Assembly: GCF_016745395.1 (NCBI RefSeq)
Contig: NZ_JAERVJ010000001.1
Coordinates: 62,001 to 126,000 of the forward strand
Direction of reading: 5' to 3'
Length of the DNA: 64,000 nucleotides
DNA from: Methylocystis sp. Sn-Cys
GTDB lineage: Bacteria > Pseudomonadota > Alphaproteobacteria > Rhizobiales > Beijerinckiaceae
Under the pieces are notes generated by a model. It was given only the letters and a program-made list of their open reading frames with translations. It was not told the DNA's origin and searched no databases. Position numbers and translations under genes: made by a program. Shown one piece after another: positions 29,968-42,306 of this stretch (position 1 is its first letter; the number at the start of each line of letters is the position of its first letter).

Positions 29968-30237
29968 ATGGCGTCCAGGGACTTCCGCTTGCAGATGCAG
30001 GGCTACGGTCTGACGACGGCGAATATTTTCTATGGCCTGCCGGACCATCCGAAGATCATCCAGAGCTACATTTGGCAGGAATATGATCTGCACCCGCATT
30101 TTCCCGAGCTGAGGAAATTCCTGGATTTTTGGGCGAGGAGCCTCGACGGGCCGCTCCATGGCGTGACGGTGGCGCATGCCCAGCTCATCACGCCAGCGGA
30201 GATGCGGCTGGTCGACGGCGAGTTTCATGTGCACTGA
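29968..30237 (+). CDS. Usg family protein
   Basis: An 89-residue protein of the Usg family, widespread in alphaproteobacteria and historically annotated near trpF. The characteristic core reads YGLTTANIFYGLPDHPKIIQ, then SYIWQEYDLHPHFPELRKFL, DFWARSLDGPLH and AHAQLITPAEMR. AAGGAG lies eight bases before the ATG. The biochemical role is not established. The 220 bases after it hold no gene before the next start. Confidence 0.85.
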   Translation: MASRDFRLQMQGYGLTTANIFYGLPDHPKIIQSYIWQEYDLHPHFPELRKFLDFWARSLDGPLHGVTVAHAQLITPAEMRLVDGEFHVH

Positions 30238-30459
30238 CGTCGCAGCCGCTCGTCCTTGCCAATGAATTAAACGTCTCTCCTGGGGCTCTGTCCTGAAACA
30301 GGAAGCAACGGACAGATGAGGGACAAACACAGTCCGAATCGGCAGCGCGCGAAAGCCGCAGCCGATTCGCTAATATATGCTTTCTGCCGAGGCGGCTGGC
30401 GAAAATAGCGGCTTTGATGCAAGAATGCCGCGCCATTCTTGGCGCAGGGAAGAAACGAC

Positions 30460-30720
30460 ATGAAAAAGGAAACCATCAACGGCGCGACGCTCGCTGTCGC
30501 GGCGGTCGCAATCGCGCTCGCCGGAACCGCCCCGGCCGCGAAGGCCGAGACGACGACTGCGAGAGTTCACTGCCTGGGCGCCAATAGCTGCAAGGGCAAG
30601 AGCGATTGCCATTCGCCCAAAAACGCCTGCAAGGGCATGAACTCCTGCAAGGGCAAGGGCTGGGTCTATATGGAATCGGCCCAGGCCTGCGAAGCGGCCG
30701 GCGGCAAGACGCTCGACTGA
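30460..30720 (+). CDS. Bufferin-like periplasmic metallophore (BufA2-type)
   Basis: An 86-residue protein. The signal peptide ends APAAKA, and the mature peptide of about 57 residues carries six Cys: C38, C44, C50, C57, C63 and C77. The repeated NSCKGKSDC, NACKGMNSCKGKG pattern matches bufferin precursors, whose cysteines are modified to bind copper. The family normally sits with a DUF692 (BufB) and a DUF2063 (BufC) gene; neither is adjacent here. AGGGAAG precedes the ATG. It is convergent with the Ehr cluster across a strong hairpin. Whether it is modified by enzymes encoded elsewhere cannot be told. Confidence 0.75.
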   Translation: MKKETINGATLAVAAVAIALAGTAPAAKAETTTARVHCLGANSCKGKSDCHSPKNACKGMNSCKGKGWVYMESAQACEAAGGKTLD

Positions 30721-30743
30721 GCCTCTTGACGAAGAAGTCGCCA

Positions 30744-30766
30744 GGGCCGGGCACAGCGCCCGGCCC
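30744..30766. terminator. Hairpin between convergent genes
   Basis: A perfect 9-bp GC stem (GGGCCGGGC with GCCCGGCCC) with a five-base loop lies between the bufferin-like gene and the last gene of the Ehr cluster. There is no T-run, so termination efficiency is uncertain. Confidence 0.5.
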
Positions 30767-30773
30767 GGCGCTT

Positions 30774-31289
30774 TCAGCCTGCCTTGTCGACCAAGGCGAT
30801 CAAGCCTTTGAGCAGCGCCACGGGGTCGGGAGGGCAGCCGCGAATATGGAGATCGACCGGGACGACCTGCGAGACGGCGCCCACGCAGGCGTAGCTTCCG
30901 GCAAAAACGCCGCCGTCGAAAGCGCAATCGCCCACTGCGACGACCCATTTGGGATCGGGCGTCGCATTATAAGTGCGCTCCAGCGCCTCTTTCATATTCT
31001 TGGTCACGGGCCCGGTGACGAGCAGCACGTCGGCGTGCCGGGGCGACGCCACGAATCGCAGACCGAAGCGCTCGAGATCGTAAAAGGCGTTGCTCAGCGC
31101 ATGAATCTCGAGTTCGCAGCCGTTGCAGGAGCCCGCGTCGACCTCGCGGATCGCGAGACTGCGGCCGAGCTTCTCGCGGGCGGCTCTTTCCATCGCCTGT
31201 CCGAGCTCGGCGAGCATCGCGTCTTCGGGCCGGGGCGGCGGCTCGGTCAGCGCGCCGCGCAAAAGCCCTTGGAAGAGAAATTTCTGCAT
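30774..31289 (-). CDS. hyfI: Ehr/hydrogenase-4-type small subunit (NuoB-like)
   Basis: A 171-residue NuoB/HyfI homologue. All four ligands for the N2-type [4Fe-4S] cluster are visible: C55 and C58 (GSCNGCELE), C122 (VGDCAFDGG) and C152 (IRGCPPDP). In complex I and group 4 hydrogenases this cluster hands electrons to the active site of the large subunit. That partner here (31303-32829) has no NiFe ligands. The gene is last in the cluster, 13 bases after hyfG. ATG at 31289 is chosen because the longer frame overlaps hyfG. Confidence 0.85.
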   Translation of the reverse strand: MQKFLFQGLLRGALTEPPPRPEDAMLAELGQAMERAAREKLGRSLAIREVDAGSCNGCELEIHALSNAFYDLERFGLRFVASPRHADVLLVTGPVTKNMKEALERTYNATPDPKWVVAVGDCAFDGGVFAGSYACVGAVSQVVPVDLHIRGCPPDPVALLKGLIALVDKAG

Positions 31290-31302
31290 GGTTGCGAGCC
31301 GC

Positions 31303-32829
31303 TTACAGGTCGTGCCCCGAATAGGAGCAGTTGAAGGATTTGTTGCAGAGCGGGAAATCCGCGACGATATTCCCCTTGATCGCGGCTTCGAGCAGCGGCC
31401 ATTGGAACCAGGACGGGTCGCGCAGATGCGCCCGCTCGATCCGGCCGTCGGCCGCAAGGCGCAGCCAGACGAAAATATCGCCGCGGAACCCTTCCACGAG
31501 CGCCGCGCCCTCGGCCCCGCCCGGCGCGGCGCCGAGATCGGCTTGGATGGGGCCATGGGGGAGGCGATCGAGGATTTGCTCGATGATCTCGACCGACGCT
31601 CTCACCTCGTCGAAGCGCACCCAGACGCGCGCATCGACGTCGCCGCCGGTCGACTCGCCGAGCTCGAAGGAGAGCGCGTCATAGGGCGCGTAGCCGATGG
31701 TGGCGCGGGCGTCGAAGCGGCGGCCAGAGGCGCGGCCGACGAAGCCCCCGCAGGCATATTGGCTGGCGAGCTCGGCGCTCAGCACGCCGGTTCCCACGGT
31801 GCGGTCCTGCAGCGAGGTCGTGTCGCCATAGAGCGCGACGAGACGCGGCGTCATCACCGCGATCCGTTCCAGCAGGGAGCGCAGCGTCGTCACGCCCTCT
31901 TCCGACAGATCCACGGCGACGCCGCCGGGCGTGATGCGGTCCATCATCAGCCGATGGCCGAAACAGGCGGCGGCCGCCCGCAGCAGCTTTTCGCGAACCA
32001 GCCCGCATTGCGCGAGCATCAGCGCAAAGGCGGCGTCGTTGCAGATCGCGCCGATGTCGCCGAAGTGATTGGCGAGGCGCTCGATTTCCGCCATCAAAGC
32101 GCGCAGCCACACGGCGCGCGGCGGCGGCTCGACGCCATAAGCAGCCTCGACGGCGCGCGCGAAGGCAAAACTATAGGCCACGGTGCTGTCGCCTGAGACG
32201 CGCGCGGCGAGCTTCGCCGCCTTGTCGAGCGGGGCGCCGGCCATGAGGCTGTCGACGCCCTTGTGCACGAAGCCGAGCCGCTCCTCGAGCCGGACCACCA
32301 CCTCGCCATTGCAGGAGAAGCGGAAATGACCCGGCTCGATGATGCCCGCATGCACCGGGCCGACAGGAATCTGATGCAGCGGCGCGCCTTCGGCCGGCGA
32401 GAATTGATAAGCGTCGCTCGCCGTCTCGATCTGCGCCGCCTCCCCGTCGGGATGACGAAGGCCCCAGCGGCCGTGATCGAGCCAGCGGCGCGTGTCGGGC
32501 GATCCTTCGGGCGTGAGCCCGTAAAGATCGGCGATCGTGCGTTCCTGCCTCAGCGCCGGCGGGTGCCGCACGCCGACCGAGGGAAAGTGGCCTTGCGGGC
32601 AATCGAGCGAGACGAGGCGAATCTTTGGCGTCGCCCTGCCGACGATCGCCATGAACACATGAGCGCCGTCGCTCCATAGGCTGAGAAGATCGGCCTTGCG
32701 GCCGGCGATCTCTTCGATTGCCGCGCGCCAACCGGCGTCGTCGACCGTCTCGCGCGCCCAGGGGCGGCAGGACGCAGCGGGCGCAGGAGCCGTGCTGTTC
32801 GGGTCCTCAGGGGTGAAGAGCATTTGCAT
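31303..32829 (-). CDS. hyfG: Large subunit of Ehr complex, NuoC/NuoD-like fusion lacking NiFe ligands
   Basis: A 508-residue fusion of a NuoC-like part (residues 1-150) and a NuoD-like part. HyfG-type conserved segments are seen: HQIPVGPVHAGIIEPGHFRF, LEERLGFVHKGVDSLMAG, EIERLANHFGDIGAI and GHRLMMDRITPGGVAVDL. True NiFe hydrogenases carry R-x-C-G-x-C at the next position. Here it reads AARVSGDSTVAYS (209-220), with no Cys. The C-terminal CxxC is also absent; the chain ends PLCNKSFNCSYSGHDL. So H2 chemistry at a NiFe site is excluded. This matches energy-converting hydrogenase-related (Ehr) complexes. The substrate is unknown. Confidence 0.85.
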   Translation of the reverse strand: MQMLFTPEDPNSTAPAPAASCRPWARETVDDAGWRAAIEEIAGRKADLLSLWSDGAHVFMAIVGRATPKIRLVSLDCPQGHFPSVGVRHPPALRQERTIADLYGLTPEGSPDTRRWLDHGRWGLRHPDGEAAQIETASDAYQFSPAEGAPLHQIPVGPVHAGIIEPGHFRFSCNGEVVVRLEERLGFVHKGVDSLMAGAPLDKAAKLAARVSGDSTVAYSFAFARAVEAAYGVEPPPRAVWLRALMAEIERLANHFGDIGAICNDAAFALMLAQCGLVREKLLRAAAACFGHRLMMDRITPGGVAVDLSEEGVTTLRSLLERIAVMTPRLVALYGDTTSLQDRTVGTGVLSAELASQYACGGFVGRASGRRFDARATIGYAPYDALSFELGESTGGDVDARVWVRFDEVRASVEIIEQILDRLPHGPIQADLGAAPGGAEGAALVEGFRGDIFVWLRLAADGRIERAHLRDPSWFQWPLLEAAIKGNIVADFPLCNKSFNCSYSGHDL

Positions 32830-32841
32830 GTCCCTTTGCGC

Positions 32842-34290
32842 TTATCCCAGCAGCCGCGCCACGTTCTGGAACCAGGTGACGAGATAAGACGGCAGATAAA
32901 GGCCCGCGAGAAGCACGAGCGAAAGATGCGCGATGAGCGGCACGGGAGAGGCCGGCGCCTCTCCGGCGCTCTTCGTCGGTTCGCCGAAAGCCATGCCGAT
33001 CAACCGCATCAACAAGGCGCCGAACGCCACAAGAAGGCCGAGAACCAGCGGAACCGCCAGCCATGGCTGACGCGCGAAGGCTGAGCTCACGACCAGAAAT
33101 TCGCTCATGAAGACGCCGAGCGGCGGCATGCCGCAGATCGCCATCACGCCGACGACGAGGCTCCAGCCCAGCACCGGATGGCTCTGGGTCAGGCCCCTGA
33201 TCTCGGCGATCTTCTGCGTGCCCTTGGCCTGAGCGATGTGGCCGACGGAGAAGAAGATCGCAGATTTGGTGAGGCTGTGCATCGCCATATGCAGCAATCC
33301 GGCAAAATTGGCGACCGGGCCGCCGATCCCGAAGGCGAAGGCGATGATGCCCATGTGCTCGATCGACGAATAGGCGAAGAGGCGTTTGATGTCGTCGCGC
33401 CGGTAGAGCATGAAAGCCGCGAATAGCACGGAGGCGAGGCCCAGCGCGATGAGCAGCGGCCCGGGCGTAATGGCGGCGGCGTTGGCCGTGAGCAGCATTT
33501 TGAAGCGCAGCACGGCGTAGAGCGCGACATTCAGCAACAGACCGGAAAGCACCGCCGAGATGGGCGTCGGGCCCTCGGCATGCGCATCGGGGAGCCAGGC
33601 GTGCATGGGCGCGAGGCCGACCTTGGTGCCATAGCCGAGCATCAGGAAGACGAAGGCCACATTCAAGAGGCGCGGGCTGAGATGCGCGGCGTGCTGCATC
33701 AGCGTGGACCAGAGCATGGAGTCGTAGCCCTCGCCCAGAACCGGCTCCGCCGACATATAGACGAGGATCGTGCCAAAGAGCGCGAGCGCAATGCCGACGC
33801 TGCCCAGAATGAAATATTTCCAGGCGGCTTCGAGCGAGTCGCGGGTGCGGTACAGGCCGACCATGACAACCGTGGTCAGCGTCGCGACTTCGACCGAGAC
33901 CCATGTGAGGCCGATGTTGCTGGCCAGAAGCGCCAGATTCATGGCGCACATCAGCGCCTGATACATGGCGTGGTAAAAGCGCAGATTGCCCGGCGTCAAT
34001 TTGCCGATCGCGAGCTCGTGCTCGATATAGCTCGCGCTGAAGCCCGCCGTGGTGAAGCCGATAAGCGTCGACAGCACGACGAAGACGACGTTGAGATCGT
34101 CGACCGAGAGAAAGCTGCCGGCCTCGTGTCCCTTGGCGAGGAGCAAAAGCGCGAAGACGAAGGTCGCGCCCGACGCGGCGACATTGAGCTGAGCCGCTTT
34201 CTTATATTCGGTCTGAAAGGCCAGCACGCCCGCCGCGACCGCCGGAATGGCCACGAGCGCGTTCGACACCATGAAGAATTCGGAAATCAT
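32842..34290 (-). CDS. hyfF: HyfF-like proton-translocating membrane subunit
   Basis: A 482-residue antiporter-like membrane protein (NuoM/N family) with about 14 helices. Conserved ion-path features are visible: Glu in TWVSVEVATLTTVVMV, Lys in MLGYGTKVGLAPMHAWLPDA, the HAEGPTPISAVLSGLLLNVA broken helix and the second half DDIKRLFAYSSIEHMGII with MAMHSLTKSAIFF. It lies 13 bases upstream of hyfG and overlaps hyfE by ATGA. The family moves H+ or Na+ across the inner membrane, coupled to electron transfer in the peripheral arm. Confidence 0.9.
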   Translation of the reverse strand: MISEFFMVSNALVAIPAVAAGVLAFQTEYKKAAQLNVAASGATFVFALLLLAKGHEAGSFLSVDDLNVVFVVLSTLIGFTTAGFSASYIEHELAIGKLTPGNLRFYHAMYQALMCAMNLALLASNIGLTWVSVEVATLTTVVMVGLYRTRDSLEAAWKYFILGSVGIALALFGTILVYMSAEPVLGEGYDSMLWSTLMQHAAHLSPRLLNVAFVFLMLGYGTKVGLAPMHAWLPDAHAEGPTPISAVLSGLLLNVALYAVLRFKMLLTANAAAITPGPLLIALGLASVLFAAFMLYRRDDIKRLFAYSSIEHMGIIAFAFGIGGPVANFAGLLHMAMHSLTKSAIFFSVGHIAQAKGTQKIAEIRGLTQSHPVLGWSLVVGVMAICGMPPLGVFMSEFLVVSSAFARQPWLAVPLVLGLLVAFGALLMRLIGMAFGEPTKSAGEAPASPVPLIAHLSLVLLAGLYLPSYLVTWFQNVARLLG

Positions 34291-34952
34291 CGGCGTTCTC
34301 CGCGCACGCGATCGAGTTCGTATAAGTCCACTGTGTCGAAGCGCTCCCGAATGCGGAACAGGAAGATGCCGATCACGATAAAGGCGATGAGAATCGAGAA
34401 GGCGACGCTGATCTCGACGACGAGCGGCATGCCATTGGCGCCCGCGGCCGCCAGCACGAGGCCGTTCTCCAGCGACATGAAGCCGATGATCTGACTGACG
34501 GCGTTGCGCCGCGTGACCATCATCAGCATGCCCAGAAGGACGATCGTCAGCGCAAAGGCGAGGTCTTCGCGCGCGAAAGGATCGGCGGTCGTCGTCGCGG
34601 GCAGCATGACGACGAGCGAAAGGCCCATCAGGAACATGCCGACGAGCATGGTCGCGCCGATGCCGCCGACGACTTCCACCGTGCGATGGACGCGCAGCGC
34701 CTTGACGATCTTGTGCAGGCTATAGGGAATGACGATGGCCTTGAACACGAGGGCGATCGCCGCCGTCACATAAAGATGCGCCGCGTTCTGCACATGGGCC
34801 TGCCAGGCCACCGACAAAGTCAGCACCAAAGCATGCAGCGCGAAGATGTTGATGAGCCCCGTCAGGCGATCTTGATAGAGCAGCATGAAGCTGACGAGCA
34901 CCAGCCCGCCCGCGAGGAGCTGCGCGATGTCGAGAGACAGATGCTCTTGCAT
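34287..34952 (-). CDS. hyfE: HyfE-like membrane subunit (contains NuoK-like part)
   Basis: A 221-residue membrane protein with about six helices. Residues 120-195 resemble NuoK: FALTIVLLGMLMMVTRRNAV, SQIIGFMSLENGLVLAAAGA, with the conserved Glu in MSLENG. This subunit lines the proton path in hydrogenase-4/formate hydrogenlyase. The start shares one base with the hyfC stop (TAATG) and the stop overlaps hyfF. No separate NuoJ-like gene is present. Confidence 0.85.
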   Translation of the reverse strand: MQEHLSLDIAQLLAGGLVLVSFMLLYQDRLTGLINIFALHALVLTLSVAWQAHVQNAAHLYVTAAIALVFKAIVIPYSLHKIVKALRVHRTVEVVGGIGATMLVGMFLMGLSLVVMLPATTTADPFAREDLAFALTIVLLGMLMMVTRRNAVSQIIGFMSLENGLVLAAAGANGMPLVVEISVAFSILIAFIVIGIFLFRIRERFDTVDLYELDRVRGERR

Positions 34953-35905
34953 TACAGGCTCCGGGTGACAAAGACGAGAAGAGTGCCGAGAAGGCCGAGC
35001 ATCAGCGCCGCTCCCAGGAAATCCGACACGCGGAAGATGCGCATCTTTGCGGTCGATACTTCGAAGAGGGCCAGCAAAAAGCCCGCGACAAAGATTTTCA
35101 CGACATAAAAGGCGACGCCATAGCCCATGTCGACGATGCCGCCATCCGGGGGCGCGATGCCAAAGGGGAAGAAGATGCAGCCGATAAGCGACACATAGAG
35201 AAGAAGCTTGAGCGCCGAGGCCATCTCGATGATGGCGAGATGACGTCCCGAATATTCGAGAATCATCGCCTCGTGGACCATGGTGAGCTCAAGATGCGTC
35301 GCGGGATTATCGACCGGTATGCGTCCGTTCTCCGCAATCGCGACAATGATGAGGCCGATCAGCGCGAAGAGCACGGAGACGCGCAGCGCGAAATCCGACG
35401 CCATATAGGCGGCGACTTCCGAGAGCTGGGTCGAGCCGGCGATGAGCGAGACGATGAAGGCGATCATGATCGTCGCCGGCTCGGCGAGCGAACCGAACAT
35501 CGTCTCGCGGCTCGAGCCGATGCCGCCGAAGCTCGTCCCCACATCCATGCCGGCGAGCGCCAGGAAGAAGCGGGCGGCGCCGAGCAAGGCAGTGAGCGCG
35601 ATGAGATCGGCGATCCAGCCGAACATCAGTCCGGTCGCAAATGTTGGAACGAGCGACGCCGCCACCCATGTGGTCGAGAAAATCAGATAGGGGGCCGCCC
35701 GGTAGAGCCAGGAGGCGTCATGGGCGAGCACGACGTCCTTCCTTAGCAGGCGAATGAGATCGTACCAGGGCTGCAGAAGCGGCGGCCCGCGCCGCCGCAG
35801 CAGGCGCGCCTTCACCTTGCGCGTGAATCCGATCAGCACCGGCGCGAGCGCCAGCACCAAAGCCATTTGCGCCGCTTGCGCGAAGAGGTCGAAGAGAAAG
35901 GTCAT
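34952..35905 (-). CDS. hyfC: HyfC-like membrane subunit (NuoH family)
   Basis: A 317-residue NuoH/HycD-family protein with about eight helices, anchoring the peripheral arm. The hallmark quinone-site-side loop is present: AENGRIPVDNPATHLELTMVHEA, here seen as GRIPVDNPATHLELT and EAMILEYSGRHLA. Other conserved parts are RRGPPLLQPWYDLIRLLRKD and SRETMFGSLAEPATIMIAF. The ATG overlaps the hyfB stop (ATGA). Confidence 0.9.
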   Translation of the reverse strand: MTFLFDLFAQAAQMALVLALAPVLIGFTRKVKARLLRRRGPPLLQPWYDLIRLLRKDVVLAHDASWLYRAAPYLIFSTTWVAASLVPTFATGLMFGWIADLIALTALLGAARFFLALAGMDVGTSFGGIGSSRETMFGSLAEPATIMIAFIVSLIAGSTQLSEVAAYMASDFALRVSVLFALIGLIIVAIAENGRIPVDNPATHLELTMVHEAMILEYSGRHLAIIEMASALKLLLYVSLIGCIFFPFGIAPPDGGIVDMGYGVAFYVVKIFVAGFLLALFEVSTAKMRIFRVSDFLGAALMLGLLGTLLVFVTRSL

Positions 35906-37899
35906 AGCGCCACGAGGATGAGGAGAAAGACGAGGGCGGCGAAGACGAGGGCGATATATTCCTGGATGGACAGGAAGTTCACCACATTGAGCCGCCCCGC
36001 GCAGAACAGCACCGCTTTCGTCAGCGGCTCGTAGAGGTAGTTGATGAAGCGGTCGCCGATCTCCACGGAGAAATGCGCCACGCGCGTCTCCCCCGGCAGC
36101 GGCATGTCGAGCTTCTCGCGCACCGAGAAGGCGACGGCGCCGAGCGCGCGACGCACCGGCTGCGCAAAGCTGCTCGCCGTATATTGACTCGCGGGGGTTG
36201 GATCGACGTAGCCGCAATCCCACGGCGGCGCGCGGCGCAGCGGACGCGGCCAGAAGGTCTTGATCGTCTGCGCCATGGCAAAAGCCGACAGGCCGATGAA
36301 GGCGAAGACGAGGAGGCCGTTATAAGAGCTGCGGCTCTCGGCGATGGGCGCGATCGTAAACCAGCCGATCTGGCTCTGCGCCGGCATGCGGCCGCCGACA
36401 TATTCGGCCGCCGCGGGCGAGATCGTGTCGATCATGAAGCTTGGCGTAATCCCCGCCAGAAGGCAGAGAGCGATCAGCGCGAACATGGCGCGCAGCGACC
36501 ATTGATCGGTCTCCTGCGCCTGCTCGGCGGCGCCCGAGCGCGGCCGGCCAAGGAAGACGACGCCAAAGGCCCGCACATAGGCGCCGGCGCCCAGCGCCGC
36601 GCTCAGCGCCAGCGTCACGCCGACAGCAGGCGTGAGCAGCTTCAATATCCACTGCGGCAGCGAGGGGCTGAGAAGGATGGCCTGGAACACCAGCCACTCG
36701 GAGACGAAACCGTTGAGCGGCGGCAGCGCGGCGATGGCCATGCAGCCGCCGAGAAAGACGAAGGCGGTTTTCGGCATCGAGCGGATCAGGCCGCCGAGCT
36801 TTTCGATGTTCTTCTCGCCGGTCGCGCCGAGCACGGCGCCGGCGCCGAAGAAGAGCGTGCTCTTGAACAGAGCGTGGTTGAAGACGTGGAACAGCGCCGC
36901 GGTGAAGGCGAGCGCCGCGGGAAGCGCCTGGCCATTCGCCTTGAAGGCCAGCGCCAGGCCGAGCGCGACGAAGATAATGCCGATATTCTCGATGGTGCTG
37001 TAGGCGAGAAGCTTCTTGAGATCGCTCTGCACGGTGGCGAACAGCACGCCGATCAGGGCGCTCGCCGCGCCGAAAACCAGTGGGTGAATGCTCCACCAGA
37101 AGGCGGGCGGGCCCAGAAGATCGAAAGCCATGCGGATGAAGCCGTAAATGGCCACCTTCGTCATGACGCCGCTCATGAGCGCCGAGACATGGCTCGGCGC
37201 GGCGGGATGAGCGAGCGGCAGCCAGATATGCAGCGGAACGAGACCCGCCTTCGAGCCGGCCCCGAGGATGACGAGGGCAAGGACGAGGCCGGATTTCCAG
37301 GCGTCCTTCGGAATCCCCCGGATCGTATCGAAGTCATAGGCGCCGGAGGCGCCGCCGAGAACGCCGAAGGCCATGAGCAGGCAGAAGGTGCCGAAGCTCG
37401 CCATGAGCAAATAGATGTAGGCGGCGGCGCGGTTTTCGGCGTGATCGTGATGGGAAATGACCAGCGCCCAGGACGAGAGCGACATGAATTCCCAGGCGAC
37501 GAGGAAGGTGAAGGCGTCGTCGGCCATCACGACGCCGTTCATGCCGGCGATGAAGGCCGGAAAGAACGGCAGCACGCGCATCGGGCTTTTCTCATGCGCG
37601 CCGTAGCCGATGGCGTAGACGCTCGCCGCCGCGCCGCCGAGATTGACGACCGCAAGAAAGAAGGCGCTCAGCGCGTCGATGCGAAAGCGCATGCCGATCC
37701 AGGGCAGGCCCAGGGGCAGCGTCGTCTGCAAGACATGCGCGCCTCTCGGGACGATGACGGCAAGGAAAATCGCCGCGCATAATCCGCCGGTGAGCCCGTA
37801 AACGAGCCGCGTCACATCCGCGCGGTCCTTATAGCGGATCGAGGCTACGCCGACGCCGATCAGGGCGCCCACGCAAAGAAGGGCGAGATAAAGCGGCAT
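35902..37899 (-). CDS. hyfB: HyfB-like membrane subunit (NuoL family)
   Basis: A 665-residue antiporter-like subunit with a long C-terminal extension. Seen are the Glu of FLVAWEFMSLSSWALVISHH, the Lys of GAGSKAGLVPLHIWLPLAHP, the broken helix APSHVSALMSGVMTKVAIYG, DLKKLLAYSTIENIGII and FNHALFKSTLFFGAGAV. The C-terminus carries WDCGYVDPTPASQYTASSFA and a final helix, as in HyfB/HycC. This is the first gene of the hyf-like run, 201 bases after sulP. Together with HyfF it gives the complex two ion-translocating modules. Confidence 0.9.
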   Translation of the reverse strand: MPLYLALLCVGALIGVGVASIRYKDRADVTRLVYGLTGGLCAAIFLAVIVPRGAHVLQTTLPLGLPWIGMRFRIDALSAFFLAVVNLGGAAASVYAIGYGAHEKSPMRVLPFFPAFIAGMNGVVMADDAFTFLVAWEFMSLSSWALVISHHDHAENRAAAYIYLLMASFGTFCLLMAFGVLGGASGAYDFDTIRGIPKDAWKSGLVLALVILGAGSKAGLVPLHIWLPLAHPAAPSHVSALMSGVMTKVAIYGFIRMAFDLLGPPAFWWSIHPLVFGAASALIGVLFATVQSDLKKLLAYSTIENIGIIFVALGLALAFKANGQALPAALAFTAALFHVFNHALFKSTLFFGAGAVLGATGEKNIEKLGGLIRSMPKTAFVFLGGCMAIAALPPLNGFVSEWLVFQAILLSPSLPQWILKLLTPAVGVTLALSAALGAGAYVRAFGVVFLGRPRSGAAEQAQETDQWSLRAMFALIALCLLAGITPSFMIDTISPAAAEYVGGRMPAQSQIGWFTIAPIAESRSSYNGLLVFAFIGLSAFAMAQTIKTFWPRPLRRAPPWDCGYVDPTPASQYTASSFAQPVRRALGAVAFSVREKLDMPLPGETRVAHFSVEIGDRFINYLYEPLTKAVLFCAGRLNVVNFLSIQEYIALVFAALVFLLILVAL

Positions 37900-38100
37900 T
37901 TATGTTCCTTGAACGACTTGGCCGAGAGGCTTGCCTGCATAGACGGTCGCGGGAATTCCGGCGGCTGTCTATCCCGCCGAACGTCTCACCTGCGATATTT
38001 CGCCGGAATGCGGCGCGGCCTTAGAGCGCATTCCGCAAAAGTTGCAGACCTGTGCGAAAAGAATGCGCTCCAGCTTTTTGAATCTGCGCGGAAAAGCGCG

Positions 38101-39753
38101 CTAGGCGGGGCGCCTGCGCGGCGCCAAAGGATGGTCGGAGGTCGGGACGAGATGGTCGAGCCCGCGGATTTCCGCATGACCGCCCTTGCCGTGGTAATCC
38201 CCGCAGAAATGATGGAGATTTTCCATCACCGTGTGGTCGACGGTCGCTGTCTCCGAGAGATCGAAGATGACCGTCTTGCCCGGCGGGATCGCGGTGAGGT
38301 CGTTCTTGAGCGCGAGATAATTGCCGAAGAAGGCCGCGCCCGCGACTTGCACATGGTAGACGCCCGGCGTCTTCTCTTCGATCGAGCGGCTGAGCTTGAT
38401 AACATCCGGCCAATGGATGCTGCGCCAGAAATGGAAGGCCAGCTCCGCCAGGACGCCGATGGCGACGCCGATGAGAAGGTCGGTCGCCAGCACGCCGACG
38501 ATGGTCACGACAAAGACGCCCAACTGGTCCCAGCCAATCTCCAACGTCTTTTTGAACTCGTGAGGCGAGGCCAGCCGATAGCCCGTGAAGACCAGGAGCG
38601 CCGCGAGCGAGGCGAGCGGGATCTCGTGGATCAACTTCGGGAACAGGGCGACGAAGACGAGCAGGAAGAGCCCGTGGAAGAAATTGGCCCAGCCGGTTTT
38701 CGCGCCGTTGTTGACATTGGCGGAGCTGCGAACGATTTCCGCGATCATCGGCAGGCCGCCGATCAGGCCGCAGATGGCGTTGCCGACGCCCACCGCCGCG
38801 ATGTCGCGGTTGAGGTCGGAAGTTCGCTTATAGGGATCGAGCTTGTCGACCGCAGCGGCGCTCAGCAGGCTCTCGAGGCTGCCGACGAGCGCGATGGCGA
38901 CGACCTGCTGCCAGAAGACGAGATGTCCGACGCGGGCGAAATCGGGCGCGGCGAAGCCCGCCAGGAAATTCTCCGGCAAGGTGACGAGGAACTTCGGGCC
39001 GATGGTGAATTCATGGTGCGGCAGGAAGACCATGTCCGGCAGGAAGAGGTATTTGTGCTCGTCCTCGATGTCGAAATATTTGGCGAGGGCCATGCCCAGC
39101 AGGACGACGAGCAAGGGCGCCGGGATCATCTTGAGCTTGGGGTTCCGCACCAGGGTCCAGAGCGCCAAAATCCCGATGCCCAGAAAGCCGATGATGGCGA
39201 CCTCCGGGTTCATGTCCCGCAAACTCGCCGGGATAGCGCCGATCGTCTGGAACAGCGTCTGCGCATCCGGCTTCACGCCAAGCATGACGTGAATTTGCTT
39301 AGCCATGATGATGATGCCGATCGCCGCCAGCATGCCGTGGACGGCCGAGGCGGGGAAGAAGGCGCTCATCTTGCCGGCCTTCATTACGCCCATGAGGATT
39401 TGCAGCAAGGAGGCGAAGAAGATCGCGGCGAGCGTGTAGCGATAGCCCGCCATAGCGTCGCCCTCGCCGAGCTCGTTCACTGAATCGAGAATGACGACGA
39501 TCAGGCCGGCCGCCGGCCCCATGATCGTGACGAAAGAGCCGTTGATGCGCGACACCAGAAGCCCGCCGACGATGGCCGAGATGATGCCGGCCTGGGGCGG
39601 AAAGCCGGAGGCCATGGCGATGCCAAGGCACAAGGGCAAGGCGATCAGGAAGACCAGGAAGCCTGAAACGACGTCGGAGCGCCAGCTTTCGAAGAGCCCG
39701 GCGAACCCGGATTTGGGAGACAAGGCGTCATGAGCCGGCGAGGAGATGGTCAT
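38101..39753 (-). CDS. SulP family anion transporter
   Basis: A 550-residue SLC26/SulP transporter. The transport domain (residues 25-410) shows DVVSGFLVFLIALPLCLGIA, PPQAGIISAIVGGLLVSRIN, GSFVTIMGPAAGLIVVILDS, ASAVHGMLAAIGIIIMAKQI and GLIGGLPMIAEIVRSSANVN. A short STAS-like domain follows (about 465-530: GVYHVQVAGAAFFGNYLALK, VIFDLSETATVDHTVMEN). SulP members carry sulfate, bicarbonate or other anions. Its place directly upstream of and in line with the Ehr complex makes bicarbonate uptake an attractive guess, but the substrate cannot be read from sequence. Confidence 0.85.
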   Translation of the reverse strand: MTISSPAHDALSPKSGFAGLFESWRSDVVSGFLVFLIALPLCLGIAMASGFPPQAGIISAIVGGLLVSRINGSFVTIMGPAAGLIVVILDSVNELGEGDAMAGYRYTLAAIFFASLLQILMGVMKAGKMSAFFPASAVHGMLAAIGIIIMAKQIHVMLGVKPDAQTLFQTIGAIPASLRDMNPEVAIIGFLGIGILALWTLVRNPKLKMIPAPLLVVLLGMALAKYFDIEDEHKYLFLPDMVFLPHHEFTIGPKFLVTLPENFLAGFAAPDFARVGHLVFWQQVVAIALVGSLESLLSAAAVDKLDPYKRTSDLNRDIAAVGVGNAICGLIGGLPMIAEIVRSSANVNNGAKTGWANFFHGLFLLVFVALFPKLIHEIPLASLAALLVFTGYRLASPHEFKKTLEIGWDQLGVFVVTIVGVLATDLLIGVAIGVLAELAFHFWRSIHWPDVIKLSRSIEEKTPGVYHVQVAGAAFFGNYLALKNDLTAIPPGKTVIFDLSETATVDHTVMENLHHFCGDYHGKGGHAEIRGLDHLVPTSDHPLAPRRRPA

Positions 39754-40195
39754 CGTCTGTTATCCTCGAACTGGAGATGAGACCGGAAAAAGAGCCTGGG
39801 CCCTGTCCCCCTTGGGCGACAAAGGCATTTTCGGCGCCGAGGCCGTCTGCACTCTTTTTGGTGGGGCTGAGGGCGCCCGGCGCCGCTCACGGACCCGGCA
39901 AGATTATATTTCAGGCGGGACGGCGCTTATTTCGGCAGAGCCGCGATTTGTCTAAAATGAAGGCTGGGCCGGCCTTTTGCTGCGCCTAAGTCTCGCTTCA
40001 TTGGCTTTCCTCGATTGGCCTCCAAGGGCTCAGCTACACTTGCAAGCGGCTGTTTCCATAGTTTTTCGCACTGCGGAAAAATGTTTCCGCTCTATGTCGG
40101 GGAAGCCGGCGCGCTTCCGGAAACCCAGACAATCGGGGTGCGACACGCTATAGCCATGAACACAGAGGCGCACATGGACGGAGGCGCTTGGAAGC
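39754..40195. other. Divergent intergenic region, no gene seen
   Basis: 442 bases between sulP (leftward) and the response regulator gene (rightward). Apart from an inverted repeat at 40073-40090 nothing is recognised. Promoters for both directions must lie here. Confidence 0.5.
40073..40090. promoter_or_regulatory. Inverted repeat, possible operator
   Basis: GCGGAAA-AATG-TTTCCGC is a perfect 7-bp dyad about 105 bases before the response regulator start. Related half-sites (GTTTCC, TTCCGG-AAAC) lie on either side (40051 and 40117). It could be an autoregulatory site. Confidence 0.4.
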
Positions 40196-40915
40196 ATGAG
40201 CAATCGCAGTTCGGTCCTCATCGTCGAAGACGACGCGGAAATCGCGGAGCTGATTTCCAGATACCTCGAAAACAACGGCATGGCGGTCACGCGCATCCCC
40301 AGCGGGGAAACCGTCGACGCCAAACTGGCCGCCGGCGACTTCGACATTCTCATTCTCGACCTCAATCTGCCGGGCGAGGATGGTCTTTCCATTTGCCGGC
40401 GGGTCCGGGCGGCGCATGACATCCCGATCATCATCGTCACCGCCCAGGGAGAGGACGTCGACAAGATCCTCGGACTCGAGATAGGCGCCGACGATTATGT
40501 GGTGAAGCCCTTCAACTCCCGGGAGCTGCTCGCGCGCATCAGAGCCGTGCTGCGCCGCACCGGGCCGCAAAGCCGCGTCGAGGCCGGCCCCTCGAACCAA
40601 ATCTTTCAGTTCCTGGGCTGGCGCATCAATCTTCTCGCCCGCGACGTCGTTTCGCCCAGCGGCATGAAGGTCGCCATGACCGGCGCGGAATTCGATCTCC
40701 TGCACGCATTCTGCGAAAATCCGAACCGGGTGCTGACCCGCGATCAGCTCATCAACATGACCCATGGCCCCACCGCCGGCCCCTTCGAGAGAAGCATCGA
40801 CGTGCTGATCAGCCGGCTCAGACAGAAGCTCGAGAAGGATCCCAAAAACCCGGCTATCATCCAAACGGTGAGATCGGAGGGCTACATGCTCTCCGCGCCC
40901 GTCGCCCGGATTTGA
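40196..40915 (+). CDS. OmpR-family response regulator
   Basis: A 239-residue regulator. The receiver domain (5-120) has acidic pair EDDAE, phospho-acceptor Asp in ILILDLNLPGEDG, the Thr in IIIVTAQGE and the Lys in YVVKPFNSREL. A winged-helix DNA-binding domain follows (135-235: FQFLGWRINLLARDV, MTGAEFDLLHAFCENPNRVL, ERSIDVLISRLRQKLEKDP, IQTVRSEGYMLSAPV). It pairs with the kinase that follows; the reading frames nearly touch. Confidence 0.9.
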   Translation: MSNRSSVLIVEDDAEIAELISRYLENNGMAVTRIPSGETVDAKLAAGDFDILILDLNLPGEDGLSICRRVRAAHDIPIIIVTAQGEDVDKILGLEIGADDYVVKPFNSRELLARIRAVLRRTGPQSRVEAGPSNQIFQFLGWRINLLARDVVSPSGMKVAMTGAEFDLLHAFCENPNRVLTRDQLINMTHGPTAGPFERSIDVLISRLRQKLEKDPKNPAIIQTVRSEGYMLSAPVARI

Positions 40916-40929
40916 AGATCAAGGCTTTC

Positions 40930-42306
40930 ATGCGACGCCTGGCCCCAGCCCGCCTTGCCGGTCAAATCACGCTGCTCATCCTCGTCTCGATCGTGACCTT
41001 CCAGACGATCGTGCTGGTCACTTTCCACGTGCTCGACGTCGAAGGGCGGCGCCACATTGTCGACCAGACGGATTTCATCGCGAGCGTCATTCTCGCGCTG
41101 GACGCGGCGCCGGCCGAGGCGCGTCAGGGGTTGCTATCCGAATTCGCGCAGGCCGCGCCTTTCGCGAATATCCATTTGCAAAAGGAAAAGCCGCGGGCCG
41201 TCACGACCGACGACAGGGAGTTCAAAAAAGAAATCCGCCTGATCCGGACCGACCTGTGGCCCGAGGCGGAGGTTTACGCCGCCGCGCCGCCCAATGAGGA
41301 CGGCGCGCAGGGCGTTATGGCTGTCGCGCTCCGCAAGGGCGGCTATGGGCTCATCTCCATTACCCAGCACCGCAAGCCGCCGCGCTCGGTGTGGCGATGG
41401 CTCTGGGAGCCGGAGCCCGGCACGCCTTTCCTGCTGACGCCATGGGCGCTGTCGGCCATTTTGTTTTTTCTCAGCACCTCGGTTCTCGTGCTGTGGGCGT
41501 CGAACGGCATTGTCGAGCCGCTGATTACTTTGGCGCGCCACGCCGAGCAGTTCCCCGGCTCGCACAGCAGCGAAGGCGCGCTTCCCGAGCGCGGCCCCAG
41601 CGAAGTGCGCGAGCTGACGCGCTCGATCAACCGCATGCAGGAGCGTATCGCCGCGATGATCGTGGCGCGGACACGGGTGTTGGCGGCTGTCAGCCACGAT
41701 CTGAGAACCATCATCACGCGGCTGAATCTGAGAGCCGAATTTATCGCCGACGCCGATCTGCGAATCAAAATGCTCCGCGACGTCGACCTCATGGACGCCA
41801 TGCTGCGCAAGAACCTGCAGTATCTGCGCGCCGAGAGCGACAAGACGGATTATTCGCTGATCGACCTCGACAGCGTCCTGCAAACCGTCGTGGATCAGTT
41901 CGCCGACATGAATTACAACGTGTCCTACGCTGGCGGCGGTCGCCAGATGATGATCGGCTCCCTGACGGACATGCAGCGGGTTTTCACCAATCTGGTCGAG
42001 AACGCTGTCCATCACGCCGGCGTGGTCGACGTCCGGATAGACGAGTCCCTGCCCGGCAAGCTCCAGGTCGACGTCATCGACGACGGTCCGGGCATTCCGC
42101 AAGACCAGAGGGCGTCCGTTTTCGAGCCCTTCGTGCGCGGCGAGCCGGGGCGCACGATGGACAGCCACAGCGGATTCGGCCTTGGCCTGTCGATCGTGCG
42201 TTCTCTGGTCGAACGCCACGGCGGAACCGTCTCTTTACTGGATCGCGAGCCGAACGGGCTCGTCGTCCGCGTCACGCTTCCGCGCGCCAGCGGCGACGAA
42301 GCTTGA
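40930..42306 (+). CDS. EnvZ-like sensor histidine kinase
   Basis: A 458-residue kinase with two membrane helices (about 10-35 and 155-180), a periplasmic sensor between them, a HAMP segment, and a HisKA domain with the phospho-acceptor in AAVSHDLRTIITRLNLR. The HATPase domain follows (NLVENAVHHAG, DVIDDGPGIP, GFGLGLSIVRSLVERHGG). The ATG at 40930 has AAGG five bases upstream. A TTG at 40912 overlapping the regulator stop (TTGA) is an alternative that adds six residues. The signal is unknown; no target is adjacent except the divergent sulP cluster. Confidence 0.9.
   Translation: MRRLAPARLAGQITLLILVSIVTFQTIVLVTFHVLDVEGRRHIVDQTDFIASVILALDAAPAEARQGLLSEFAQAAPFANIHLQKEKPRAVTTDDREFKKEIRLIRTDLWPEAEVYAAAPPNEDGAQGVMAVALRKGGYGLISITQHRKPPRSVWRWLWEPEPGTPFLLTPWALSAILFFLSTSVLVLWASNGIVEPLITLARHAEQFPGSHSSEGALPERGPSEVRELTRSINRMQERIAAMIVARTRVLAAVSHDLRTIITRLNLRAEFIADADLRIKMLRDVDLMDAMLRKNLQYLRAESDKTDYSLIDLDSVLQTVVDQFADMNYNVSYAGGGRQMMIGSLTDMQRVFTNLVENAVHHAGVVDVRIDESLPGKLQVDVIDDGPGIPQDQRASVFEPFVRGEPGRTMDSHSGFGLGLSIVRSLVERHGGTVSLLDREPNGLVVRVTLPRASGDEA

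Follow-up and report, generated by a model that had tools for sequence, protein, structure and literature searches.

A SulP anion transporter gene at the head of an Ehr operon in Methylocystis sp. Sn-Cys: distribution of the pair and its possible role in anion uptake

The locus described here raises the question why a gene for a SulP-family anion transporter stands at the head of an Ehr operon. The window, a stretch of 64,000 nucleotides from Methylocystis sp. Sn-Cys (contig NZ_JAERVJ010000001.1, positions 62,001 to 126,000), carries a single minus-strand run at 39753-30774 of the window with the order SulP-hyfB-hyfC-hyfE-hyfF-hyfG-hyfI, the core of which is a six-gene Ehr operon (Table 1). 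The genome of 4.02 Mb carries a methane/ammonia monooxygenase gene (PF02461), and the organism most likely oxidises methane. An earlier note on this DNA, made from the sequence alone, had placed SulP and hyfBCEFGI in one leftward run, and the coordinates and strand of all seven genes were borne out. We consider it very probable that SulP and Ehr form a functional module. The gain of a SulP partner on two or more occasions offers a tangible lead to what the widespread Ehr complexes do.

For the genus of the window, hyfB was detected in 33 of 39 genomes. In 29 of these 33 the next gene upstream, in the same orientation, is SulP; the gene stands complete in this place in 27 genomes and is cut by the contig end in two (G550, G551). 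One of the 27, G554, is linked via an operon with a broken hyfB. An XRE regulator takes the place of SulP in G089, G538 and G540; the fourth hyfB-bearing genome outside the 29 (G544) was not read. Outside the genus, only L041, from another genus of the same family, shares the SulP-first arrangement among the alphaproteobacterial loci read. L118 had been considered as an independent genus and was rejected, being a duplicate of G550:C12 of the window's genus with the same gene coordinates. As a side observation, two Ehr operons (L201, L251) are present in G554, one led by SulP with the broken hyfB and the other with an antisense SulP fragment downstream.

The earlier note had proposed to look for the SulP-hyfBCEFGI order across the Hyphomicrobiales. 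Apart from L041, this gene order was not met at the alphaproteobacterial Ehr loci read outside the genus; the neighbours elsewhere are mostly XRE genes, unrelated genes or nothing recognised, and conservation across the whole order was rejected. In the order-wide sample, a close SulP was present in two of 397 genomes, namely that of the window and a second one from the same genus. Unlinked SulP in relatives, which the note had regarded as evidence against the pairing, was observed outside the genus but not within it. The linkage itself stands on a narrower basis: it is kept through most of the genus, it is co-inherited, and it also occurs in Competibacterales with a different SulP subfamily.

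Co-inheritance was examined with 28 linked loci. The distances of SulP and HyfB, the only pair compared, gave a Mantel correlation of 0.889, which none of 2000 permutations reached. These parallel distances show what is presumably common descent. HyfB divergence among the linked loci is up to 42%. In the operon tree, for which 164 of 198 surveyed Ehr loci were used, those alphaproteobacterial SulP-linked operons whose sequence was usable (27) group in a single clade with weak support (57). The 198 loci are the set minus the duplicates L118, L082 and L130; other near-duplicates may remain. Furthermore, seven unlinked paralogues of the window SulP form one clade. Because this clade is nested inside the linked copies, it suggests that the paralogues were copied out of the operon. 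Their neighbouring genes were uninformative.

The junctions within the run are tight. hyfB/hyfC and hyfE/hyfF overlap by ATGA and hyfC/hyfE by TAATG, as previously claimed, but the last two spacings (hyfF-hyfG and hyfG-hyfI) are 12 and 13 bases and not 13 each. The loosest junction is that between SulP and hyfB with 201 bases. A strong terminator and a separate promoter in this gap had been named in the note as evidence against the arrangement; a simple scan of the minus strand detected neither. Over the 28 linked loci the gap ranges from 14 to 202 bases, with 14-80 bases in 23 loci and 120-202 bases in five (the window, L203, L204, L208 and L221). A dispersed repeat of about 70 bases lies inside the gap of the window. 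No Rfam family was matched in 30000-41000, the repeat included. Since the gap of the close relative L204 is 129 bases, the repeat explains only part of the spacing. The long spacing belongs to the window and its closest kin and not to the module. The 201-base gap was also considered as a sign of two operons. This was rejected, because the repeat lies inside it and 23 of the 28 linked loci have 14-80 bases.

A second lineage with SulP beside Ehr was identified in the gammaproteobacterial Competibacterales. The Ehr large subunit was found in 29 of 40 genomes of this order, 28 of which were read (G945 was left out). Next to the operon, 14 of these 28 have a SulP of the DauA type. In 12 of the 28 it follows hyfI on the same strand, two of these copies at a distance of 1.2 and 2.8 kb; in L241 and L242 it is located between an XRE gene and hyfB. 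For L138, from a Competibacteraceae metagenome-assembled genome, and for L223 the start of SulP overlaps the stop of hyfI. The L138 protein exceeds the NCBIfam cut-off for DauA (756 bits against 614), and the other copies are 85-99% identical to it. The backbone is shared, with XRE-hyfBCEFGI and the same downstream genes (clusters e7-e9), and the transporter occurs on either side of the operon. In the DauA tree, in which the row of L251 was disregarded, L241 and L242 group with one locus without SulP. SulP was not seen in the other 14 genomes, most of whose loci are cut short; among the 15 Competibacterales loci without SulP, 1.5 kb on both sides were available only for L227, L229, L236, L244 and L245. 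Even so, SulP was gained or lost more than once within this order, as judged from the DauA tree.

Judged from these comparisons, SulP appears to have joined Ehr at least twice, in two lineages and with different SulP subfamilies. Because two separate gains of different SulP proteins were kept through wide divergence, a functional SulP-Ehr pair is indicated. The two gains support such a pair, not one that is general to the order. According to another explanation the genes hitch-hike, as chance neighbours kept by descent with no shared function. A single origin can account for all alphaproteobacterial cases, and most Ehr loci lack SulP, as this explanation would expect. Nevertheless, gaps of 14-80 bases are retained in 23 of the 28 linked loci despite the HyfB divergence, and the whole genome has just three SulP genes. 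It also does not fit with the second lineage, where a different SulP lies on either side of the same backbone. We regard hitch-hiking as very improbable.

Table 1 Features of the SulP-Ehr locus and its neighbourhood (positions within the window)
Feature	Position	Strand	Evidence
hyfI, NuoB/HycG-like FeS subunit	30774..31289	-	PF01058
hyfG, NuoCD/HycE-like large subunit without NiFe cysteines	31303..32829	-	PF00346
hyfF, NuoM/N-like antiporter-type subunit	32842..34290	-	PF00361; NF005043 above cut-off
hyfE membrane subunit	34287..34952	-	PF00420 weak, below cut-off; NF008556 below its cut-off
hyfC, NuoH/HycD-like subunit	34952..35905	-	PF00146
hyfB, NuoL/HycC-like antiporter-type subunit	35902..37899	-	NCBIfam NF005086 above cut-off
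SulP-hyfB intergenic gap, 201 bases	37900..38100	-	terminator/promoter scan of minus strand: no match
Hairpin-forming dispersed repeat (about 70 bases) within the gap	38021..38090		33 or more other matches, complete or partial, elsewhere in this genome; hairpin in the fold
SulP-family anion transporter, 550 aa	38101..39753	-	PF00916, E=1.2e-59
Divergent OmpR-like response regulator	40196..40915	+	PF00072, PF00486; best NCBIfam match OmpR, below cut-off
EnvZ-like sensor histidine kinase	40912..42306	+	PF02518, PF00672; best NCBIfam match EnvZ, below cut-off

The nature of the complex was examined by structure matches and residue conservation; a sequence entered the residue counts if its coverage was at least 85% and it contained no stop. 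The best PDB matches of HyfB and HyfC are subunits 3 and 4 of formate hydrogenlyase (7z0s_C and 7z0s_D). HyfG aligns best with HycE of this enzyme, and for HyfI the formate hydrogenlyase structure is the second-best match. No PDB match at 1e-35 was obtained for HyfF. HyfG reads RVSGDST where HycE has RVCGICG, and the C-terminal NiFe motif is absent. The altered site is itself conserved, with S212 in 186 of 187 and D214 in 187 of 187 survey sequences. The quinone-site residues of complex I, His38 and Tyr87 of Thermus Nqo4, correspond in the alignment to Ile164 and Gly213 of HyfG; these two residues occur in 186 and 185, respectively, of the 187 sequences. The large-subunit site is, as far as these alignments indicate, neither that of a hydrogenase nor a canonical quinone site. 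Each of the cysteines C55, C58, C122 and C152 of HyfI is kept in at least 0.99 of 180 sequences. Conservation of at least 0.99 was likewise found for E137, K217, K248, K346 and E401 of HyfB (170 sequences) and for E134, K223, K342 and E397 of HyfF (188 sequences), presumably channel residues. With these residues kept, the membrane part and one FeS cluster appear to be intact.

The two CxxC NiFe motifs of a group 4 [NiFe] hydrogenase are missing from the large subunit, and the quinone-site His and Tyr of respiratory complex I are missing as well. The features expected for Ehr are present, namely a large subunit without NiFe ligands, an FeS small subunit, and membrane subunits of antiporter and NuoH type. 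By the features tested, the operon is assigned to Ehr, not to hydrogenase or complex I. The run consists of six hyf genes and SulP only, and neither a ferredoxin-type subunit (HyfA/HyfH) nor a formate dehydrogenase is encoded in it, the search for these being confined to the run. At four loci of one family in the phylum sample (f83; L179, L182, L183 and L186), the Ehr operon has hyfB duplicated in tandem.

The transporter is a clear member of the Sulfate_transp family PF00916 (202 bits against a gathering score of 23.2). It does not reach the cut-off of the NCBIfam sulfate permease TIGR00815 (160 bits, cut-off 380). No STAS domain was matched at 1e-3, and the alignment to SLC26Dg continues to residue 544. 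Glu294 and Arg342 are invariant in all 28 full-length Ehr-linked copies of this subfamily. The identity to the DauA type, the partner in Competibacterales, is 27%. Among plasmid records the nearest relative is 54% identical and belongs to Methylomagnum; the SulP neighbourhoods on the plasmids of Methylomagnum and Persicobacter were uninformative. The Methylomagnum plasmid copy (L149) lies about 2 kb from a monooxygenase cluster annotated as amoABC.

As the best explanation of the whole we tentatively propose, at rather less than an even chance, a co-expressed anion-uptake module with bicarbonate as the most likely anion and with Ehr supplying or balancing an ion gradient. For this proposal we infer co-transcription, two-component regulation, substrate, direction of transport and energy coupling. 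SulP and the six-subunit Ehr would be expressed together under an EnvZ/OmpR-like two-component system, often accompanied by an anion-type outer-membrane porin. SulP would bring the anion inward by exchange or symport with an ion. Ehr would act as a complex I-like cation-translocating machine, with HyfB and HyfF as channels and HyfI and HyfG as peripheral arm, and would supply or balance the proton or sodium gradient and the cytoplasmic pH needed for uptake. Imported bicarbonate would then feed PEP carboxylase in the methanotroph. The pairing may be how bicarbonate-fixing methanotrophs secure bicarbonate. The further step, that Ehr energises SulP through redox chemistry, as the earlier note had suggested, seems unlikely.

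Taken separately, bicarbonate as the substrate of SulP falls just short of an even chance. Functional studies on bacterial DauA describe carboxylic acids, bicarbonate and sulfate (passages of PMC5703999). The two SulP subfamilies would have to share a substrate, and by these passages bicarbonate is best able to unite them. In genomes of the genus with at least 90% completeness, the DIC-complex protein DabA was present in all three that lack Ehr, compared with 6 of the 29 that have it; this contrast (Fisher p=0.017) was drawn post hoc and is not adjusted for kinship. The alternatives are sulfate or dicarboxylates as substrate, or a mere stress regulon.

Several observations weigh against the proposal. 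Most Ehr operons, at 154 of the 198 loci, occur without a same-strand SulP nearby; for 109 of these 154 each flank extends to 1.5 kb or more. SulP was sought by profile at 1e-8 up to 3 kb upstream and 3.5 kb downstream; flanks of at least 1.5 kb were available upstream for 162 and downstream for 169 of the 198 loci. The 154 include 45 that are short or cut on a side, and L201 with its antisense SulP fragment. Within the genus, G057 and G557 have a close SulP and no hyfB match. The SulP of the window reaches none of the substrate-specific cut-offs of NCBIfam (172 of 614 bits for DauA, 123 of 880 for BicA) and has Glu294 where BicA has aspartate. A glutamate at this site may favour proton over sodium coupling. 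The seven genes include none for a carbonic anhydrase, an electron donor to Ehr or an electron acceptor, and the flanks of the window operon gave no Porin_O_P match. When genomes of any completeness are counted, DabA is present in 3 of 6 without Ehr versus 7 of 33 with it (p=0.16). Since DabA was found in six SulP-linked genomes, it and SulP-Ehr are not mutually exclusive.

The neighbouring genes offer a further explanation. SulP, as exchanger of chloride, bicarbonate or sulfate, and Ehr, acting on cytoplasmic pH, could each belong independently to a regulon for pH or osmotic stress that the EnvZ/OmpR-like pair controls, with no shared substrate or energy. The two regulators upstream (both below curated cut-offs) are in line with such mere co-regulation; upstream sequence is available for 27 linked loci of the genus, and 22 of these gave a match to the divergent response regulator. 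Ehr elsewhere is accompanied by an XRE regulator alone, which also fits. A same-strand XRE-type gene was detected within 400 bases upstream in 88 of the 162 Ehr loci with enough upstream sequence. However, the second lineage, with an XRE gene upstream, has SulP beside Ehr too, and this one sensor cannot explain that. We consider co-regulation alone as doubtful, if less so than the other alternatives. A Porin_O_P gene follows downstream in 12 of the 29 linked loci of the genus and in L041. According to sequence reading, many Ehr operons (e.g. L053, L158) are headed by a small XRE regulator and others by an XRE-cupin-like one. At the other end of the window operon a BufA2-type bufferin (copper RiPP metallophore) gene, above the NCBIfam cut-off, is located at 30439-30720 (+), convergent to the end of the hyf genes.

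SulP could also import the substrate of Ehr. A carboxylate, say a C4-dicarboxylate, oxalate or formate, would be one candidate. Group 4 complexes pair with formate chemistry, and in Competibacterales the partner belongs to the DauA type of C4-dicarboxylate transporters; both would agree with substrate import. The window SulP is, as mentioned, far from the DauA type. Moreover, no dehydrogenase partner stands out among the recurrent flanking genes. Apart from XRE regulators no flanking gene is broadly recurrent at Ehr operons, most flanking genes being clustered and not identified. Import of an Ehr substrate is rated as improbable.

The boldest form of the uptake module is similarly improbable. 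SulP and Ehr would physically assemble into a new inorganic-carbon or anion pump, in which the HyfG/HyfI arm, free of NiFe and quinone, drives the HyfB/HyfF channels and their ion flow directly powers SulP. The pump would have had one origin in methanotrophic Beijerinckiaceae and another in Competibacterales. If true, such a pump would reveal what orphan Ehr complexes do. Ehr large subunits of the HyfG kind were found in 62 of 397 genomes sampled from the phylum of the window; loci were read for 40 of these 62 matches.

In the open-licence PMC literature no description of SulP beside Ehr or hyf genes was found, some of the searches being noisy; the passages of PMC12319191 and PMC4725956 were uninformative. 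Ehr of comammox Nitrospira was reported to lack the CxxC motifs, and its function was called unknown (passages of PMC10284858). For Riflemargulisbacteria, the partner proposed for Ehr is a formate dehydrogenase whose genes are located away from it in the genome, and the coupling of a redox reaction to ion translocation was only suspected (passages of PMC6349859). The window operon resembles these complexes in the large subunit without NiFe cysteines, the FeS small subunit and the antiporter-type and NuoH-like membrane subunits. In contrast, it is headed by SulP, and unlike the Riflemargulisbacteria proposal it comprises no formate dehydrogenase, for which the window genome was not searched. 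In Acidithiobacillus ferrooxidans, the six-gene cluster AFE2149-54 was described as a group 4 hydrogenase, and the SulP gene AFE0286 adjoins a putative carbonic anhydrase gene and not this cluster (passages of PMC2621215). AFE2149-54 may be the same gene set as the window hyf operon; it differs in its description as a hydrogenase and in that the SulP of its genome, by these passages, is not beside it. Formate hydrogenlyase (Hyc/Hyf) is similar by the structure matches given above, whereas the window run is without NiFe site, ferredoxin-type genes and formate dehydrogenase genes.

BicA and DauA belong to PF00916 like the window SulP, which stays under both cut-offs. DabA (PF10070) had no match in the window genome. 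Judged by these profiles, the SulP-Ehr pair is not BicA, DauA or DAB. NuoL-type proton channels serve the accumulation of inorganic carbon in DAB/MpsAB and in cyanobacterial NDH-1 (passages of PMC13144422 and PMC10880623). The window operon shares NuoL-type channel subunits with DAB/MpsAB and the NDH-1 CO2-uptake complexes, but differs in having a SulP transporter as partner and in its set of NuoB-, CD-, H-, K- and L/M/N-like subunits.

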